The notes below the pieces were generated by a model. That model was given only the letters and a program-made list of their open reading frames with translations, was not told where the DNA came from and searched no databases. A stretch of DNA of 64,000 nucleotides from Miltoncostaea marina (GTDB lineage Bacteria; Actinomycetota; Thermoleophilia; Miltoncostaeales; Miltoncostaeaceae), in NCBI RefSeq assembly GCF_018141525.1, contig NZ_CP064655.1:1364001-1428000 (forward strand), in the 5' to 3' direction. Positions 9,177 to 49,720 of this stretch are shown here, in pieces (positions within the stretch are counted from its first letter, which is position 1; each line of letters begins with the position of its first letter). The position numbers were made by a program, and so were the translations under genes.

Positions 9177-9799
9177 ATGGACCGGCTCCTGCCATGGCTG
9201 CGGCGATCGGGGTGGGCGTACATCGCCGTGGCGGTGGCGCTGGCCGCCGTCGCCTGGCGGCTGGGGCCCGGCGCGGCGTCGGGCGGGCAGCCGCCCGCGA
9301 CGGCCACGGTGCCGGCCGAGGCGCCGGGCGATGCCGGCGCCGGCGACGGGGCGCCGGGCGAGGCCGCCGGGCCGCGCGCGCTGGTGCACGTGGCGGGGGA
9401 GGTGCGCGACCCCGGCGTCTACGAGCTCGCGCCGGGCGCGCGGGTGGTCGATGCAATCCGGCGTGCGGGCGGGCCCACCCGCCGGGCCGACCTCGCCGCC
9501 CTCAACCTCGCGGCGACGGTGCAGGACGGCAGCAGGTGCGCGTCGCGCGGCGGGCGCCCGCCGGCGGCGCGGCGACGGGCGGCGCGGCGGGCGCCGCGGT
9601 GCAGGCCGGTCCGCTCAGCCTCTCGTCGGCCACCACCGAGCAGCTCGACGCCCTCGACGGCATCGGCCCGACGCTCGCGGCGCGCATCGTCGACTGGCGC
9701 AGCGCCCACGGCGGGTTCTCGTCCGTGGATCAGCTCCTCGAGGTCCCCGGCATCGGCCCGGGGCGCCTCGAGGCCATCCGCGCGCGGGTGGTCCCGTGA
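9177..9799 (+). pseudogene. comEA: comEA, DNA-uptake receptor, interrupted by a frameshift
   Basis: ComEA binds incoming DNA at the cell surface and hands it to ComEC. ATG 9177 begins an N-terminal transmembrane helix (AYIAVAVALAAVAWRLG), then an SLBB-type domain (ALVHVAGEVRDPGVYELAPG) ending LNLAATVQDG. The expected continuation, with QQVRVARR and then the two helix-hairpin-helix motifs (LDALDGIGPTLAARIVDWR and LLEVPGIGPGRLEAIR), lies in another frame. Restoring one C at about 9530, so that GGC-AGC reads GGC-CAG-CAG, rejoins them perfectly. The frame ends at 9799. The lesion may be a real mutation or a sequencing error; comEC downstream is also broken. Confidence 0.85.
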
Positions 9800-40377: not shown

Positions 40378-40443
40378 CCGGGGCTTGATTCGATCCCCCG
40401 CCGGGCCGATGTCGACCCCGACCGACTGCGGGGGAGGCCCGAT

Positions 40444-42428
40444 TTGTCCGCATGGAAGCGGGGCGCGTGGAGCGTCGTCAGCCCGGAGCGGCTGGCGGAG
40501 ATCATCGACCGGCTGTCCGGCGAGCGCCGGCCCGATCGGCTGGGCGCCGCGGCGCTCGACGCCGCGCTGGCCGCGACCGGCGCGCGCGGCGGCAGGCTGC
40601 TCGGCCCGCCCGCCGCCGGCGGGCCGGCCCCGCTCGCCGCCTCGGGCGACGAGCGGGGCCGCTCGGGCGTCGTCGGCGCCGACCTGCGTGGGCGTCGCGG
40701 CCCGGTGGGGCGGATCGAGGTCTGGGGGCCGGGCGAGGACCCGGCGGCCGAGGCCGCGCTGCGCGTGGTCGCCGCCGTCGCCGCCGCCGCCCTCGAGGGC
40801 GCCGCGGCCGAGCGTGAGCGCGCCGACGAGCGCGGCCGCACGCAGCGCCTGGAGGCCGCCACGGCGGCCGTGCGCGCCGCCGCCGAGCCGCGCGAGGCGG
40901 TGACCCGGGTGCTGGCCGAGCGCGCGCGCTGCTCGGCGCGCCCGCCGCCGCGCTCCTGGCGGCCGGCGCGCCCGAGCCGGAGGTCGCCGCCTACGACGGC
41001 CTCGAGCCGCTCCCGCCGGCCGAGCTGGCGGCGCTGGTGCCGCCGCGCCTGCGCGGCGACCTCGCCCTGGGCCGCTCGTGGACCGGGCCGGTGCCCGACG
41101 GCGGCGCGCTGCGCGAGGGCGGCCTCGCCACGGTGGCGCTGGCGGGCGTGGGCGAGGGGGCCGGGCTCGGCGTGCTCGCGGTGTTCTCGCGTTCGGACCG
41201 CCCGTACGCCGCCGCCGACGTCGCCGCGCTCGAGGAGCTGGCCGCCCAGGCCGCCGCGTCGCTCACCGTCTCGGTGCTGCAGCAGGAGGTGCGCGAGCTC
41301 GGGACCATCGACCCGCTCACCCGCTTCTTCAACGCGCGCTACTTCGCGAGCCGGATCGATCAGGAGTGCCAGCGCGCGCTGCGCGCGGGCGTCCCCCTGA
41401 GCGTCGCGATCATGCAGCTCGACGGCCTCGACGACCTGCGGGCCGAGGGCCGCAGCACCGCCGCCGAGACCGCCATCGAGGCCCTGGCGCGGCACGTGGC
41501 CGGGCGGCTGCGGGCCATGGACGTCGGCTGCCGCCTGGACGCGGACGAGCTGGCCGCGATCCTGCCCGAGGTGGAGGGCCTGGACGCGCTGCGCGTCTGC
41601 GAGCGCCTGCGCGCGTCGCTCGGCGACGTGCCCGAGCTCGCCGGCGCCTTCACGCTCTCCGTTGGCGTGGCCAGCTTCCCGAGCCACGCCGGCCGCCCCG
41701 ACGGCCTGGTCGACAACGCGCGCAGCGCCCTGGCCTGGGCGCGCGAGCACGGCGGCGACCGCACCTTCCTGTTCCACACCGACACGGCCGAGATCCTGCG
41801 GCGCGAGGAGGAGGACCGCGGGGCCGACGACGGCGCGGTGCTCGCGACCGTGGTCTCGCTGGCGGCGTCGGTCGATGCGCGTCACCCCGCGACGCGCCAC
41901 CACTCCGAGAACGTGGGCCGCGTGGCGGCCCTGCTCGCCGCCGAGGCCGGCCTCGGCCCCGAGCACGCCGAGCGCGTGCGCGTGGCCGGCCTGCTGCACG
42001 ACGTCGGCAAGATCGGCGTGAGCGACGACGTGGTCGCCGCCGAAGGACCGCTCACCGAGGCGCAGGCCGCCGAGCTGTCGCGCCACCCCGAGATCGGCCA
42101 GCGCATGCTCGCGGGCAGCCACCTCGCCGGGCTCGCCGCCTGGGTGCTCCACCACCACGAGCGCATGGACGGGCGCGGGCACCCCATGGGGCTGCGCGGC
42201 GGCGAGATCCCGCTGGAGTCGCGCATCATCGCCGTCGCGGACGCCTTCGACCGCCTGGTGAGCGGCGGCCCCGGCCGCCCGGCGGTGCCGATCGGCGAGG
42301 CGCTCGACGAGCTCGGCCGGCGCGCAGGCGACGAGCTCGACCCGGCCGTGGTCGGCCACCTGCGCGCGCTCGCCGGGCGCGGCGAGCTGGGCCCCGGCCC
42401 GCGCACCACCTCGGAGGAGACGGCATGA
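40444..42428 (+). pseudogene. GAF / degenerate GGDEF / HD-GYP protein with a 2-base frameshift
   Basis: A ~660-residue c-di-GMP-type signalling protein. TTG 40444 is supported by GGGGGAGG at 40430-40437. The first frame ends in similarity at ERARC near 40925; the continuation (ALLGAPAAALLAAG) is in another frame. Removing two bases from the CGCGCGCG run at 40921-40928 joins them. After a GAF-like region, the GGDEF domain (TIDPLTRFFNARYF) has RLDADEL in place of the GGDEF motif, so it is probably inactive. The HD-GYP domain has HDVGKIG and HHHERMDGRGHPMGL (GYP is GHP), compatible with phosphodiesterase activity. A dinucleotide run is a classic slippage site. The stop overlaps the HDOD gene. 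Confidence 0.8.
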
Positions 42429-43444: not shown

Positions 43445-43545
43445 CGGTTTCGGCCGCAATTTGCCGACGAGGTTCCTCTACGGAGCCTCAACTCCCGTCG
43501 CCGGCGATCGATACATGGAATGGAAACGAACTGGACGGGGGAGAG

Positions 43546-44130
43546 ATGGCGACCACGATGACGGCCTGCCCGCGGGTGTGGGCGTTGGTCGGGATCGGCG
43601 CGGCGCTGGCGCTCGCGCTCGGCGCGCCGGCCGCCCACCCCGCCACGTCGGGCGCCGAGGTGACGATCACGGCGGGATCGCTGTCGCTCGCGGCCTCCGA
43701 CTTCCAGCCGCTGGCCGCGGCGCTGACCGGCGCGGAGCAGGTGCTGCCCACGACCCCGGCGAGCCCGTGGACCGTGGTCGACGCCCGCGGCACCGGGGCG
43801 CCCTGGAGCGTCGTGGCGACGGCGACCGACCTGGTCTCGCCCGGGACGCCGGCGAGGGTGATCCCGTCGTCGGCGATCGCCATCACCACCGGGCCGGTCG
43901 CCGCCGGCGCGGGGGCCGACCCGGCGACCGGCATCGCCGGCGCCACGGGCGCGGCCTTCACGGCCCCGACCGGGCCGGGCCAGACCGACGTGGCGGTGCT
44001 CGCCGCGCCCGGCCCGCACCGCGGCGCCTTCACCTTCACGCCCCGGCTCGACGTGACCATCCCCGCCGACGCGATGGCCTCCCACGCGGGCGCGCCCTAC
44101 GCGACGACCCTGACCCTGACGATCTCGTGA
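43546..44130 (+). CDS. WxL-domain-like secreted surface protein
   Basis: A 194-residue exported protein: signal peptide core WALVGIGAALALALGAPAA, then a beta-rich domain with the WxL-family pattern (VTITAGSLSLAASDF; SPWTVVDARGTGAPWSVVATA; RLDVTIPADA; TTLTLTIS at the end). The two Trp-x-(Val/Leu) spots are WTV and WSV. WxL domains bind peptidoglycan non-covalently and pair with DUF916 proteins; the next gene is exactly that. GGGGGAG precedes the ATG. Its stop overlaps the next start (GTGA). It is the first gene of a six-gene coupled operon. Confidence 0.7.
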   Translation: MATTMTACPRVWALVGIGAALALALGAPAAHPATSGAEVTITAGSLSLAASDFQPLAAALTGAEQVLPTTPASPWTVVDARGTGAPWSVVATATDLVSPGTPARVIPSSAIAITTGPVAAGAGADPATGIAGATGAAFTAPTGPGQTDVAVLAAPGPHRGAFTFTPRLDVTIPADAMASHAGAPYATTLTLTIS

Positions 44131-45056
44131 GGACGCTCCTGGTCGTGCTCGCGCTGCTCGGCGCGCTGGCGGGCGAGGCGGCGGCCGCGACCGGCTCGCT
44201 GGTGGGGGTGCGCCCGCTCGCGCCCGATGGCAGCTGGATCGTGCTGCGGGCGGCGCCCGGCACGGTCGCGTCCGCCGACGCCGTGGTGCTGAACCTGACC
44301 GACGAGCCGCAGGCGGTCGACCTCTCGACGGCCGACGCGACCACGACGGCCGACGGCGTCTTCACGCTGGCGGGCGCCGGCGAGGCGGCGACCGGGGTCG
44401 GCGCCTGGATCGACGCGCCCACCGGGCGGCTGCGACTGGCCCCCCGCGAGCGCAGGGTCGTGCCGCTGCGCGTGCGGGTGCCCGCCGACGCGCGGCCCGG
44501 CGACCACGCCGGCGGGCTTGTGGTGCAGTCGGCCTCGGCCGCCGGCACGGCGCAGGCGGGCGGCGTGGCCGTGCGCGTGGTCGAGCGGGTGGGCCTGCGG
44601 GTCTACGTCACGGTGGAGGGCGCCCGGGTGGGCGCGGTGGCGGTCGACGGCCTGGCGGCCGAGGTGACCGGCCGCGGCGGGCTGTCGGGCGCGCTGGGGC
44701 TCGGCGGCCGCGCGGGGGTGCGCTTCGGGGTGCGCAACGCCGGCAACATGGTCCACGAGCGGCTGCGCGGCGAGGTGGCGCTGGTGGAGGGCGGGCGCAC
44801 CCTCGCCACCCGGCCGCTCGACCTCGGCACCCTGCTGCCGGGCGACGTGCGGCCGGTGGGGCTCGAGCTGCCCCTGCCGCGATGGTCCCCGGGCGACTAC
44901 CGGGTCGAGGTGCGCATCCACGGCGAGCCGCCGGCGACCGCCGCGGCCGGCGTGCACGTGGGCGGCGCCCGGCTGTGGGGCGCCGGGGGGCTCGCCCTGG
45001 GCGCGGTCGCGCTGACCGGCGCGGGCGTCGGCCTGCGGAGGCGCCGTGCGGCGTGA
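44127..45056 (+). CDS. DUF916 WxL-interacting protein (WxLIP-like)
   Basis: A 309-residue membrane-anchored surface protein. It has a signal peptide (LLVVLALLGALAGEAAA), a DUF916 Ig-like domain with VLRAAPGTVASADAVVLNLTDEPQAV (key features at about 30-60) and RRVVPLRVRVPADARPGDHAGGLVVQS near 110-135, and a second Ig-like domain with RFGVRNAGNMVHERL. A C-terminal transmembrane helix (GAGGLALGAVALTGAGVGL) and an Arg-rich tail follow. In Firmicutes Csc clusters this family bridges peptidoglycan and WxL proteins. Domain order, length and TM-Arg tail match. It sits between two WxL-like genes with short overlaps. Confidence 0.8.
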   Translation: MRTLLVVLALLGALAGEAAAATGSLVGVRPLAPDGSWIVLRAAPGTVASADAVVLNLTDEPQAVDLSTADATTTADGVFTLAGAGEAATGVGAWIDAPTGRLRLAPRERRVVPLRVRVPADARPGDHAGGLVVQSASAAGTAQAGGVAVRVVERVGLRVYVTVEGARVGAVAVDGLAAEVTGRGGLSGALGLGGRAGVRFGVRNAGNMVHERLRGEVALVEGGRTLATRPLDLGTLLPGDVRPVGLELPLPRWSPGDYRVEVRIHGEPPATAAAGVHVGGARLWGAGGLALGAVALTGAGVGLRRRRAA

Positions 45057-45546
45057 GCTGCTCGGCTGCGCCCTCGCCGTCGCGGCCGCCGCGGCGCCCG
45101 CCTGGGCGGTGCAGTCGCGCGCCGGGGTCGCGCTGGAGGGCGGCGGCCTGACGGTCGACGCGCCGTCGGTCGTGGAGCTGCCGCCCATCGTGGTCGACGG
45201 CCGGCCCGTCGCCGTGCGCGCCGCGCTCGGGCCGATCGGCGTCACCGACACGCGGCCGGGCGCCCCGGGCTGGACGCTGGTCGCGCAGGCGGACCCGCCC
45301 GAGGACCCGCTGGGGCGGCCGCTCGGCGCGCCCCTCGAGCTGGTGCCGCGGCGCCCGGCGGGCCCGGCCGCCCTCGGCGTGGAGACCGGCCGCCCCGGCG
45401 ACCTCTCCGCCGCGCGCGCGATCCTCGCCGCGCCGCCGGGCTCGGGGACGGGGCGGCTGGAGGTGACGCCCGTCGTGCGCGTCACGGTGCCCGCCGACGC
45501 ACCGAGCGCCGTCTACACCACGACGCTGGTGGTGACGGTCTCGTGA
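45046..45546 (+). CDS. Second WxL-like secreted protein
   Basis: A 166-residue exported protein with a signal peptide (LLGCALAVAAAAAPAWA) and a WxL-like domain: VELPPIVVDGRPV, VTDTRPGAPGWTLVAQADP (true W-T-L) and the C-terminal RVTVPADAPSAVYTTTLVVTVS strand pair that also ends the first WxL protein. GTG 45046 overlaps the DUF916 gene by 11 bases; the stop overlaps the following gene by four. Confidence 0.65.
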   Translation: MRRELLGCALAVAAAAAPAWAVQSRAGVALEGGGLTVDAPSVVELPPIVVDGRPVAVRAALGPIGVTDTRPGAPGWTLVAQADPPEDPLGRPLGAPLELVPRRPAGPAALGVETGRPGDLSAARAILAAPPGSGTGRLEVTPVVRVTVPADAPSAVYTTTLVVTVS

Positions 45547-46049
45547 GGTGGCGCGGCTGCCCCCTCGTGGTCGCGGCCGCCGTCGCCGCGGCCGGGTGCG
45601 CCGCGCCGGCGGCGCCGGGCGGCGGGGCGGCGGCCGCCCCGACCCACCCCGCGGGGCCCGGCTCGGCCATGGCCGCCGCCCCCGGGGCGCCGCCCCGCTC
45701 GGCCCCGTTCGCGATCGTGGCCGGCTCGCACTCGGCCGCCGCGACGGCCCGCGTGGCGGCCGGCGGCCGGGCCGAGGTGGCGTTGCGGGTGGCCAACGCG
45801 TCGGACGCGCCCCGCAGGCTCGCGCTCGTCGCGCGCGCGTCGTGGCTGCGCGTGCCCGGCACGGTGCGGGTGCCCGCCCGCCAGAGCGTCGCCGTGACCG
45901 CCGTGGCGGCCCCGCCCGCCGGCACCCCGGCGGGCACCCTGCGCGGCGCGGTCGCGGCGCGTGGCGGCGGCGACGCGGCGGCGGCCGTGTCGGTCGCCTA
46001 CGAGTCGGTCGTCCCCGTGGTCGTCCACGTGACCCCCGCGGCCCGGTGA
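45543..46049 (+). CDS. Putative lipoprotein with Ig-like fold
   Basis: A 168-residue protein starting GTG 45543. The N-terminus PLVVAAAVAAAGCAAP has a lipobox-like Ala-Ala-Gly-Cys, suggesting lipid anchoring at about residue 20. After an Ala/Gly/Pro spacer comes an Ig/BACON-like strand domain (ATARVAAGGRAEVALRVANA; VRVPARQSVAVTAVAAPPAG; VVPVVVHVTPAAR). This looks like a single Ig module related to the DUF916 Ig fold. Overlaps of four bases on both sides place it firmly in the WxL operon. Confidence 0.6.
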   Translation: MRWRGCPLVVAAAVAAAGCAAPAAPGGGAAAAPTHPAGPGSAMAAAPGAPPRSAPFAIVAGSHSAAATARVAAGGRAEVALRVANASDAPRRLALVARASWLRVPGTVRVPARQSVAVTAVAAPPAGTPAGTLRGAVAARGGGDAAAAVSVAYESVVPVVVHVTPAAR

Positions 46050-47512
46050 CGCGGCGGCCGGCGGCCATCCTGGCCGGCGCCCTGGCCGCGCTCGCCGCGT
46101 GGGCGGGCGCGGCGGCGGGGCACGGCACGACGACCGTCCCGGCCACGACGCCGGGGCCCGTGGCGCACGGCGCGCTCAGCGGGCTGGCGGCGGCCGGCGA
46201 CGCCGGCGACGGCGACGCCGCGGCGACCCTCGCGGAGACCGACGCCGGGATGCTCGCGCCGTCGGTGCACCCGTCCGGCGGGGGCTTCGACGGCGGCATG
46301 GGCGGCTGGACCGCCGCCGACCAGGCGATCGGTCTGTGCACCATCTCCTCCGGCCACACCGGCGACCACGGCGGCTCGCTGCGGGCGGGCTACGCCGCCC
46401 TGCTCAACCTGCTGGGCCTGCTGGGGGAGTGCCGCACGAGCTGGCGCAGCCCGAGCTTCACCTGGACCGGCGGCGCCCCGGCGGCCGTCGCCTTCTCCAT
46501 GGACCGCCTCGTCGACGTCAACGGGCTCCTCAACCTGGTGACGGTGCGATGGACGGCCGTGCTGGTCGACGAGACCGCGCCCGGCGAGCGCGTGCTGCTC
46601 GGCGGCGTGCGCGCCGCCGACGAGGGCTGGACGACGCAGTCGGCCACCGGGCTCGGCGCGGACGCGATCGCGCACGGCCACACGTACCACGTGCGCATCG
46701 ACGTCCGCATCGAGTCGGCCCTGAGCCTCGTGACCGGCATCGGCTTCGGCGCCGACGAGGTGGCGCTCACGATCACGCCGCAGGACCACCGCGCCGACGC
46801 CGAGATCCGCGCGTCGGGCGTCCCGCGCGGCAGCACGCACACCCTCGAGCTCGCCGCGCGCACGACCGGGGAGCCGTTCGACGTCCGTCTGTGGGACGGC
46901 GCCGGCTGGGCGACCCGGGCCACCGTCAGCGGGGCGGGCCCCGCCTGGCAGCCCGTGGCGATCGGCCTCACGCCCGGGGAGTGGAACGGCGGGACGGTGC
47001 GCGTGCGGCTCGTCGCGACGGGCGCGGGCCCCGACGACACGGCGGACGCCCTGTCGCTGGAGCACGCCCGCGTGGTGGCCACGGGCGGCATCACCGTCTC
47101 GGGGCCGACCTCGGTGATCCTGCCGCCCGTCGCCCTCACGGGGCTCGCGCCCGCCGTCACGAGCGCGGCCCTCGGCCCGATCGAGGTCGTCGACACCGGC
47201 GGCGCAGCCCCCGGGTGGTCGCTCACGGCCACCGCCACGCGCTGGCGGCTCGACGGCCGCCCCGGCGAGACGCTGCCGGAGGACGCGCTGAGCGCCGCGC
47301 CCGTCGCGCCCTGGAGCCCCGACGGCTCCGACCTGTCCGGCGTCGCGGCCGGCGCCGGCGGCGTGCTCGCCGCGAGCCCGGCCGAGCTGATGCGGGCGGC
47401 GGCCGGCGGGGGCGTCGGCACCTACCGCCAGAGCCCCCTGCTCAGCCTGGTCGTCCCAATCACCGCGATGCGCGGGGTGTACCGATCCGAGATCACGCTC
47501 TCCGCCGGCTGA
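46046..47512 (+). CDS. Large secreted protein with jelly-roll-like repeats and a C-terminal WxL-like domain
   Basis: A 488-residue exported protein with signal peptide AAILAGALAALAAWAGAAAG. Residues about 75-225 form a beta-sandwich opening GFDGGMGGWTAADQAIGLC with Cys pairs (LCTISSG; GECRTSW). Residues about 240-345 form a second sandwich (RGSTHTLELAARTTGEPFDV; GEWNGGTVRVRLVATG). The end has a WxL-like domain: IEVVDTGGAAPGWSLTATAT, and VVPITAMRGVYRSEITLSAG as the terminal strand pair. It is probably the ligand-binding or structural member of the complex. The stop overlaps a CTG used by the next frame. Confidence 0.65.
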   Translation: MTRRPAAILAGALAALAAWAGAAAGHGTTTVPATTPGPVAHGALSGLAAAGDAGDGDAAATLAETDAGMLAPSVHPSGGGFDGGMGGWTAADQAIGLCTISSGHTGDHGGSLRAGYAALLNLLGLLGECRTSWRSPSFTWTGGAPAAVAFSMDRLVDVNGLLNLVTVRWTAVLVDETAPGERVLLGGVRAADEGWTTQSATGLGADAIAHGHTYHVRIDVRIESALSLVTGIGFGADEVALTITPQDHRADAEIRASGVPRGSTHTLELAARTTGEPFDVRLWDGAGWATRATVSGAGPAWQPVAIGLTPGEWNGGTVRVRLVATGAGPDDTADALSLEHARVVATGGITVSGPTSVILPPVALTGLAPAVTSAALGPIEVVDTGGAAPGWSLTATATRWRLDGRPGETLPEDALSAAPVAPWSPDGSDLSGVAAGAGGVLAASPAELMRAAAGGGVGTYRQSPLLSLVVPITAMRGVYRSEITLSAG

Positions 47513-48308
47513 CGGCCGCGGCCGCCGCCGCGCTCGCGCTCGCCGCCCCCGCCGCCGCGACGGCGACCGAGCTGCGCCTGCCCGTGCTCAACGCCGACGC
47601 GCCGGCCGTCCGCATCGTGGCGCCGGCCGACGGCGCGCGCCTGGTGGCCGGGCGGCCGGTGGCCGTGCGGGTGGTCGCCGAGCGCGCCGAGCGGCTGGCC
47701 ATGGCGGTCGACGGGGTCGACGCCTGGTCGGCCGACGCCCCGGCCCTGTCGGGGTCGTGGACGCCGACGCCGGGCAGGCACCGGCTGGTGGCCGTCGGGA
47801 GCCGCGAGGGCGCCCCCGACGCCGTGGACGCGATCGAGGTGGTGGCCGTCGCCGAGGCCGGGACGGCCGCCGGCGCGCCGCCGGCCCCGGCGGGGCCGGC
47901 CGCCCCCGGCGCCGGCGATGCGCCGTCGTCCCCCGCGCCGGCCCCCGCGCCCGCCGACCCGCGGCCCGGCGCGGGGCCCGTGCGCGCCCCGGCCGCGGCC
48001 CCGGGCGCCCCCTCCCGCGGCGGCGCCGCGCCGGGGCGCGCGCCGGCCGCGGCCGGCCGGGGGGGTCGGGCGCCGGCGAGCGCCGCCGCCGGGGACGCGG
48101 CGACCGCCGCCCCGGCGGCCGCGCCGCCGACCGGCCGCTGTGGCGCCGCGTGCTGGCGGCGGAGGGCGCGGCCGCCGCGGTCGCGTTCCCGCTCCTGCTG
48201 CTCGTGGCCGCGGGGGCGTACGCCCTGCTGCAGCGGTTCATCGACGGGGGGAAGAAGCTGGCCTGGCGCGGCCGCGGCGCGGCCGACGACCAGGTGATCG
48301 AGTTCTGA
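47509..48308 (+). pseudogene. Membrane-anchored Ig-like protein, C-terminal anchor frameshifted
   Basis: The first frame encodes a signal peptide (TAAAAAALALAAPAAA), a strand-rich Ig-like domain (VRIVAPADGARLVAGRPVAVRVVA; GRHRLVAVGSREG) and a long Ala/Pro linker. The expected C-terminal transmembrane anchor (WRRVLAAEGAAAAVAFPLLLL; RFIDGGKKLAWRGR) is in another frame, reaching TGA 48306-48308. Adding one C near 48134 (ACC-GGC-CCG-CTG) restores it. There is no ATG/GTG/TTG; CTG 47509 overlaps the previous TGA exactly as the GTGA/ATGA junctions of the other operon genes, so a CTG start is plausible. Its stop overlaps the GGDEF gene start. Confidence 0.6.
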
Positions 48309-49720
48309 TGGCCGGCCGGCGCGCCTACGACGGCGAGCTCGACCGCCGCCCCTGGTACCAGCTCGAGGACCGCCACGGCGGCATCCTCGCGGCCCGCCTC
48401 GCCGGCGGGGCCGCCGCGGCCGCGGGCGTCGCGCTGCTGCCGTCCGGCCACGCCCCGGCGCCGGCCCTCACGGCGACGCTCGCGTGCGCCCTGGCCGCCG
48501 CCCTCCACGTGCTGCTGTGGGCCGTCCCCGCGCGGTGGCCGCGCCGCCTGCGCCTCGCGGTCGACCTGAGCCTCGTCGTCGACGCGGCCTGGGTGGGCGC
48601 GCTCACCGCGCTGGCGGGGGGCTCGCGCGCCGCCGTGGCCGGGCTCTTCCTCGTCACGGCGATGTGGGCGGCCCTCGGCTACTCGGCCCGCACCGGCCTG
48701 AAGGCCGCGGCGCTCGCCTCTCTCGTGTTCCTCACGCTGGTCTGGCACGACGACGGCCGCCTGTGGAGCGCGGCGTCCCTCTCGCGGCTGGCCTTCTTCT
48801 GGATCGTCCTCGCCGCCGCCATCACCGGCGCGGCCGCCGGGGAGCGCGAGCTGCGCGTGCGCGCCGAGCGGCTGGCGGTGCTCCACGCCTCGGCGCGCGG
48901 CCTGCTCGCCGCGCCGGGGCGCGACGCCATGCTGACGATCGCGCGCGACGCCGCGGCGTCGCTCATGCCAGCCTGGCGCGCGGCCGTGCGCCTGGGCCCC
49001 GCCCGCGACGGCATCCGCCTGGCGCGGGCGGGCGACGACGGCGTGGTCGTGGTGCCGGTGCACGTGGACGGCCGGCCCGCGGGGGCGATCGAGTGCCGGC
49101 GGCCGCTGCTCGCGGGCCGGGTGCACCACCGCATCCGGCTGCGCGAGGTGAGCGCCCTGGAGACGCTCGCCGCCAACCTGGGCAACGCGCTATGGCGCGC
49201 CGAGCTCACCGCCGCCGCGGAGCGCCAGAGCCTGACCGACGGCCTCACCGGCCTGGCGAACCGCCGGGCGTTCGACGCCGAGCTGGCGCGCCGGCTGGCC
49301 GAGGTGGGCCGCGCCGAGGGCGCCTCGAGCGTGGCGCTGTGCCTGTTCGACATCGATCACTTCAAGTCGTTCAACGACACGTTCGGCCACCGGGCGGGCG
49401 ACGGGGCGCTGTCCGCCGTGGCGGGCGCGATCGCCGGCGCCTGCCGGGCCACCGACATCCCGGCCCGCTACGGCGGGGAGGAGATGGCGGTGATCATGCC
49501 GGGCCTCGGCCTGGCCGACGCCGAGCGGGCGGCCGAGCGCATCCGCGCCGCCGTCGAGGCCACCGACGTGCCCGAGCGCCTGGTCACGGTGAGCGTGGGC
49601 GTCGCCGCCACGTCGGGCGGCTGCTCGGCCGAGCTGCTGATCGAGGCCGCCGACCGCGCGCTCTACGAGGCCAAGCGCGGCGGGCGCAACCAGGTGGTCG
49701 CGGGCGCCGTCGCGGCGTGA
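48308..49720 (+). CDS. Membrane-bound GGDEF diguanylate cyclase
   Basis: A 470-residue protein. Five to six N-terminal transmembrane helices (about 25-180; e.g. ALTATLACALAAALHVLLWAV) form a MASE-like sensor, followed by a GAF-like region (about 190-300) and a GGDEF domain (about 305-465). The active motif is RYGGEEM with the substrate residues of FDIDHFKSFNDTFGH. An inhibitory I-site RATD lies five residues upstream of GGEEM, so product feedback is expected. ATG 48308 overlaps the preceding stop (TGATG), tying c-di-GMP synthesis to the WxL operon transcript. Confidence 0.92.
   Translation: MAGRRAYDGELDRRPWYQLEDRHGGILAARLAGGAAAAAGVALLPSGHAPAPALTATLACALAAALHVLLWAVPARWPRRLRLAVDLSLVVDAAWVGALTALAGGSRAAVAGLFLVTAMWAALGYSARTGLKAAALASLVFLTLVWHDDGRLWSAASLSRLAFFWIVLAAAITGAAAGERELRVRAERLAVLHASARGLLAAPGRDAMLTIARDAAASLMPAWRAAVRLGPARDGIRLARAGDDGVVVVPVHVDGRPAGAIECRRPLLAGRVHHRIRLREVSALETLAANLGNALWRAELTAAAERQSLTDGLTGLANRRAFDAELARRLAEVGRAEGASSVALCLFDIDHFKSFNDTFGHRAGDGALSAVAGAIAGACRATDIPARYGGEEMAVIMPGLGLADAERAAERIRAAVEATDVPERLVTVSVGVAATSGGCSAELLIEAADRALYEAKRGGRNQVVAGAVAA

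Follow-up and report, generated by a model that had tools for sequence, protein, structure and literature searches.

A WxL-like/DUF916 surface-protein operon of Miltoncostaea marina with a predicted sigma-28-type promoter and a coupled diguanylate cyclase gene

Results

Layout of the operon

The window analyzed here is a 64,000-nucleotide stretch of the Miltoncostaea marina genome (1364001-1428000 of a single 3.37-Mb contig), and its subject is a tight, same-strand run of genes at 43546-48308, g1-g6, that we relate to the WxL/Csc surface-protein clusters of Firmicutes (Table 1). The operon is real. Neighboring genes overlap by 4 bases (GTGA at g1/g2, g3/g4 and g4/g5; CTGA at g5/g6) or, at g2/g3, by 11 bases. 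An earlier note, made from the DNA letters alone, had described six genes with overlaps of 1-11 bases; the tight run stands. Two points need revision: g6 is not one open reading frame (ORF), and a GGDEF gene, g7, extends the run. The g7 ATG lies within the final g6 stop codon (TGATG) both in this genome and in that of a sister species, and we therefore treat the unit as an operon that probably comprises seven genes.

Each of g1-g5 begins with a hydrophobic, signal-peptide-like segment. A motif check of the g1-g5 proteins found no LPxTG motif, and thus no counterpart there of the LPxTG protein CscD, as the earlier note had stated.

Table 1. Features of the operon and its leader (window positions).
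Feature	Positions	Strand	Remarks
Predicted sigma-28-type promoter, CCTCAA-N17-CGATA (core TCAA-N16-TCGATA)	43486..43513	+	32 bases 5' of g1 start
g1, small secreted WxL-like protein (CscB-like), 194 aa	43546..44130	+	Pfam WxL E=0.033; W-x-V motif
g2, DUF916/WxL-interacting protein (CscA-like), 309 aa	44127..45056	+	PF06030 above cut-off
g3, small secreted WxL-like protein, 166 aa	45046..45546	+	Domain common to g1 and g5 C-terminus; motif DTRPGAPGWTL
g4, probable lipoprotein with DUF916-like half domain, 168 aa	45543..46049	+	hhalign; lipobox
g5, large WxL-like protein (CscC-like), 488 aa	46046..47512	+	CBM-like jelly rolls at about residues 72-350; C-terminal WxL-like domain
g6, immunoglobulin-like (Ig) frame: Big_7 Ig module, P/A-rich linker	47509..48297	+	Likely CTG start overlaps g5 stop
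g6, transmembrane frame (-1 relative to Ig frame): membrane anchor ...FPLLLLVAAGAYALLQRFIDGGKKLAWRGRGAADDQVIEF	48096..48308	+	Same -1 relation in sister species
g7, membrane diguanylate cyclase (six transmembrane segments, GAF, GGDEF)	48308..49720	+	GGDEF E=2e-41; ATG overlaps g6 stop

DUF916 and WxL-like domains

The assignment of g2 as a DUF916 WxL-interacting protein is borne out by a match to PF06030 (WxLIP_PGBD) of 29.6 bits, above the Pfam cut-off of 27.3. PF11797 (DUF3324), the host-binding domain of WxL-interacting proteins, has no match in g2; 7 of the 51 aligned family members match it, the best at 1.7e-7. The C-terminus of g2 consists of a G/A-rich segment followed by RRRR, and no 19-residue window there exceeds 1.6 on the Kyte-Doolittle scale. 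A relative of this family may also be present in g4, whose alignment to the DUF916 family (hhalign, E=5e-5, probability 67%) spans about half of DUF916. The lipoprotein assignment of g4 holds with some qualification: its lipobox is weak here (AAGC) and canonical in the sister species (LAGC).

The claim of three WxL-like proteins stands, largely by way of relatives. One domain is common to g1, g3 and the C-terminus of g5 (g5 retrieves g3 at E=3e-8), and the Pfam WxL model, applied directly to the window's proteins, finds g1 only, at E=0.033, with no match in g3 or g5. We built a profile from these three domains and their sister-species copies. This profile finds WxL-like ORFs adjoining DUF916 in most actinobacterial loci and has zero matches in reversed control sequences. 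When the 66 actinobacterial domains found in this way were scanned singly, 44 matched Pfam WxL (PF13731) at E<=0.01, the best at 1.2e-14, and 9 of 10 full ORFs checked against the same model matched, mostly above cut-off. As judged from sequence, the WxL homology of the window's own domains is indirect, established through relatives that match PF13731. A sequence search against solved structures gave no useful relatives.

The first WxL motif is well preserved. Of the 66 rows in the domain alignment, that at 47071-47509 is out of frame and was excluded from the support counts; the WxL-like domain of g5 was assessed separately, by its match to g3 and with the window-derived profile. Among the 65 correctly read domains the tryptophan is present in all and an aspartate eight residues before it (W-8) in 61. 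In g1 (DARGTGAPWSV) the motif has Asp at W-8, Arg at W-6 and Val in place of Leu; g3 has both Asp and Arg at these positions, and g5 (DTGGAAPGWSL) is without the Arg. An AlphaFold2 model of the g1 domain covers 162 residues with a mean predicted local distance difference test (pLDDT) score of 88.9.

Ectodomain of g5

Full-length alignment of g5 homologues proved misaligned, so the ectodomain alone was modeled (AlphaFold2, pLDDT 79.2). Its best Foldseek matches include a xylanase's CBM22 tandem (E=1.4e-7), as well as CBM11 and CBM4. The two N-terminal beta-sandwiches, which the earlier note had called unfamiliar, are in this model jelly rolls like those of carbohydrate-binding modules (CBMs). 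The first half of the ectodomain is also common in other secreted proteins of the same class. With N-terminal CBM-like domains and a C-terminal WxL-like domain, g5 has the build of a large WxL protein.

Conservation and distribution

The sister species retains g1-g6 at about 49-73% identity (73% for g1, 49% for g3) with neighbors conserved on both sides. The genes 5' of the operon encode a GAF-GGDEF-HD-GYP protein and an HDOD-LuxR protein. In the sister genome the HDOD-LuxR gene is kept beside the operon, and so are, on the downstream side, the GGDEF gene and the gene after it. More widely, about 9% of the genomes sampled carry DUF916, namely 27 out of 299 in the class and 27 out of 296 in the phylum. 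A same-strand WxL-like domain lies within 2.5 kb of 59 of 79 actinobacterial DUF916 proteins, on the 5' side in 58, and at least two such domains accompany 16 of them. Because g1-g6 recur in the sister species, WxL-like genes adjoin most actinobacterial DUF916 genes and reversed sequences give no matches, the gene run is not a product of chance. By these surveys it belongs to an actinobacterial branch that is widespread, and does not stand alone. The Firmicutes origin of the Csc paradigm, as put in the earlier note, agrees with a survey that places >91% of WxL sequences in that phylum (PMC9772566), but is too narrow, given the DUF916/WxL-like pairs across Actinobacteria. The suggestion of a distinct cell-surface complex is only partly borne out, since DUF916 genes in the class and phylum usually stand beside WxL-like genes.

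Among the actinobacterial DUF916 loci examined, relatives of g4, the g5 N-terminus and g6 are found only in the two sister genomes. The pairs of Microbacteriaceae, Cellulomonas and other Actinobacteria (L002-L028, L123-L137) share with our operon a WxL-like gene 5' of DUF916 on the same strand; they differ in usually having a single WxL-like gene, without g4 or g6 relatives.

Some DUF916 genes (L118, L122, L138, L117) have no WxL-like neighbors and lie instead 3' of a small secreted protein (W..xTNN..GY.L..sAsG.PAM) for which no family match exceeds the cut-off. These loci have sigma-28-like motifs upstream.

A predicted sigma-28-type promoter

A sigma-28-type motif, TCAA-N16-TCGATA, lies 32 and 40 bases 5' of g1 in the two species. 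The g1 leader has diverged between them except for the boxes GGAGCCTCAA and TCGATAC, whose spacing is identical. The longer form, CCTCAA-N17-CGATA, has 8 exact matches in the two genomes and 0 in a backward control; besides the g1 operon, it precedes cheA in both. The closely similar flagellar-style pattern TMAA-N16-CCGATA has 18 genome matches against 0 in the control, and is found upstream of flagellin and motA (each in both species), fliJ, fliM, cheY and cheA. A FliA/WhiG sigma factor (E=1e-83) is encoded in this genome, in which flagellin gives three matches. The promoter motif of the g1 operon and the coupled GGDEF gene, both beyond the scope of the earlier note, are the two most informative features of the operon.

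Similar motifs are enriched 5' of DUF916 genes in other Actinobacteria. A scan of 44 further DUF916 loci from the phylum gave 18 motif matches, of which 10 fall within 1.3 kb 5' of a same-strand DUF916 or WxL-like domain, a zone that makes up 11% of positions, and seven control patterns place 0 of 25 matches there. The clearest of these motifs, TAAAGTTTTGTCCGCTTGGACCGATA (TAAAGTTT-type), lies 110 bases 5' of two WxL genes and a DUF916 gene in locus L133.

A riboswitch 5' of g1 was considered and set aside, there being no Rfam match. Flagellar-type promoters also precede L205 and L207, which have no Pfam match, and L209/L210, one gene conserved in both species.

Discussion

An actinobacterial variant of the WxL/Csc clusters

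The clusters to which we compare the operon are the cscA-cscD clusters of Firmicutes (PMC1534035, PMC9772566, PMC10599100), whose products were proposed to form a cell-surface complex with a role in carbon-source acquisition (PMC1534035). Shared between the two are a DUF916 protein (CscA), which here may have the C-terminal membrane segment, WxL-like proteins of a small (CscB) and a large (CscC) type in a single tight operon with all products secreted, the first-motif Trp preceded by Asp at W-8 and by Arg at W-6, and N-terminal binding domains on the large member. What differs here is the loss of the second Trp-x-Leu motif, the lack of an LPxTG CscD, the added lipoprotein and Ig/transmembrane protein, the high-GC actinobacterial host, the sigma-28-type promoter and the coupled GGDEF gene. 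CscD is present in most clusters and is not essential (PMC9772566). Because both the second motif and the LPxTG protein are absent, we file the operon not as a canonical member but as an actinobacterial variant of the WxL/Csc clusters that, by the profile searches, shares their core and would work as they do. In homology and in gene content the WxL/DUF916 reading in the earlier note was right.

WxL clusters have hitherto been regarded as characteristic of low-GC Firmicutes, for the most part commensals of the gut, with links drawn to virulence or to plant sugars. The pairing of DUF916 with WxL-like genes recurs across Actinobacteria, in a form that the Pfam WxL model partly misses.

Proposed mechanism

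We propose, as the reading we somewhat favor, that the operon encodes a surface adhesion complex, a variant of the WxL/Csc type, which is expressed under sigma-28 control and made along with a diguanylate cyclase. Swimming cells would thereby be readied for attachment. The cluster appears to have been absorbed into the sigma-28 flagellar regulon, with the sigma factor predicted to initiate transcription just 5' of g1, alongside the flagellin, motor and chemotaxis genes. The -35 and -10 boxes and their spacing are those of the FliA/SigD/WhiG regulon, and here the motif lies 5' of flagellar and chemotaxis genes; the difference is that, in the literature searched, WxL clusters are no known part of that regulon. 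We found no open-access paper linking WxL clusters to flagella, a sigma-28 factor or donor strands.

Once secreted, the operon's proteins would assemble around a membrane-held g2. In Firmicutes homologues a hairpin of DUF916 is predicted to close the gap that the WxL sandwich leaves (PMC10599100), and by analogy g2 may bind the WxL-like domains of g1, g3 and g5 and complete their unfinished beta-sandwich. Such binding would hold the three proteins at the cell wall. The lipoprotein g4 and the Ig protein g6, with its transmembrane tail, could act as extra anchors that substitute for the LPxTG protein of Firmicutes. We suggest that g5 is the adhesin and that its two CBM-like jelly rolls would be displayed outwards to bind a glycan. 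Co-translation of g7 would then tie assembly to cyclic di-GMP (c-di-GMP) and so prime swimming cells for attachment. The flagellar-type promoter offers a concrete handle on when the complex is produced, and a surface complex of unknown function becomes a testable swim-to-stick claim.

Several observations count against this proposal. The exact operon is present in two genomes only, this one and that of one sister, and is missing from the two other genus members examined, though both have flagellin. The second Trp-x-Leu motif lacks its Trp in g1, g3 and g5, and just 9 of the actinobacterial domains in the alignment retain that Trp. The likeness of the WxL-like domain to pilins is weak (best E about 0.01, template-modelling score about 0.4). 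The -10 box of the g1 operon is TCGATA, as opposed to the CCGATA of the flagellar genes, and an anchoring role for g6 requires a change of frame. Across the class, co-occurrence of DUF916 with flagellin is not significant (8 of 27 versus 50 of 272, p=0.13); what links them is thus a promoter type in common, and they are not strictly inherited together. Finally, several motif-bearing DUF916 loci come from genomes without detected flagellin, and the motif may therefore serve another sigma-28-family factor elsewhere.

Alternative explanations

One alternative is ordinary carbohydrate acquisition of the Csc type, in which g5 captures polysaccharide close to the cell, the WxL and DUF916 proteins hold g5 at the wall, and co-expression with flagellar and chemotaxis genes merely marks foraging cells, so that the complex is not an attachment device. 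The role proposed for Csc clusters (PMC1534035), the CBM-like modules of g5 and a promoter type common to chemotaxis genes all speak for foraging. We nevertheless regard it as rather unlikely, since g1-g7 include no glycoside hydrolase or transporter gene and the coupled diguanylate cyclase suits attachment better. The same promoter, shared with late flagellar genes, together with a complex expected to be anchored in both wall and membrane, could instead point to a scaffold for the flagellum itself, such as a collar bound to the wall that surrounds the rod or filament in this Gram-positive cell. That idea seems improbable: the two genus members that lack the operon are flagellated, most flagellated genomes of the class have no DUF916, and most DUF916 genomes have no flagellin.

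The pilin likeness raises a further alternative, a donor-strand fiber in which the WxL-like domains polymerize, each completed by a strand from the one after it, while DUF916 and its g4 relative act in the manner of a pilus chaperone. In the Foldseek search with the g1 model, donor-strand pili rank first (CfaB, archaeal bundling pili, type 1 pili); the predicted completion of WxL by the DUF916 hairpin (PMC10599100) fits such a scheme, as do the DUF916 genes that adjoin other small secreted proteins in place of WxL neighbors. The Foldseek values are, however, only those given above, there is no usher-like gene, and in the literature found no fiber is reported for any WxL protein. We give the fiber little credence.

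More tentatively, with the odds somewhat against it, surface assemblies built on DUF916, whether their partners are WxL-like or other small beta-sandwich proteins, may belong to a sigma-28-family regulon in several actinobacterial lineages. They would then form an unrecognized surface apparatus of motile or differentiating cells, which in this genus would be wired to c-di-GMP through the co-translated cyclase.

The frame change in g6

To read g6 as a membrane-anchored Ig protein calls for a change of frame: its parts, a Big_7 Ig domain (25.2 bits, Pfam cut-off 24.1) and a transmembrane tail, lie in different frames in both species. No ATG, GTG or TTG start for g6 was found within the window; its start is likely the CTG at 47509 that overlaps the g5 TGA, a position occupied by GTG in the sister species. 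The frame of the Ig module ends at 48297 and that of the tail, shifted by -1, at 48308. Codon usage locates the change at 48096-48150, and the sister range, counted back from the transmembrane segment, overlaps this. Our main argument does not rest on the frame change.

A separate small transmembrane gene is disfavored because, at other places in the two genomes, paralogues of the anchor tail form in-frame fusions with ectodomains. Nor do we claim a programmed frameshift: the -1 relation is shared by both species, but codon usage places the change at no shared slippery sequence. In the upstream GAF-GGDEF-HD-GYP gene (40400-42428) there is a -1 frame change near 40920, and the sister copy is intact in one frame. 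Since that gene is shifted here yet intact there, single-base losses in the assembly of very GC-rich sequence are plausible. Missing assembly bases are accordingly a real possibility for g6, the alternative being a real frameshift. A codon-usage frame scan of 424 kb gave 21 candidate changes, some of them surely false, of which 16 are of the same -1 type; two more candidates in the window lie at 9533 and 12871.

The anchor motif ...LLGQRxxDRGxKLxYAGRPGEPDDELIEL also ends other P/A-rich proteins in the genus (L150, L149, L144, L146), two of which, L149 and L150, have signal-peptide-like starts. This C-terminal motif is possibly a lineage-specific membrane anchor.

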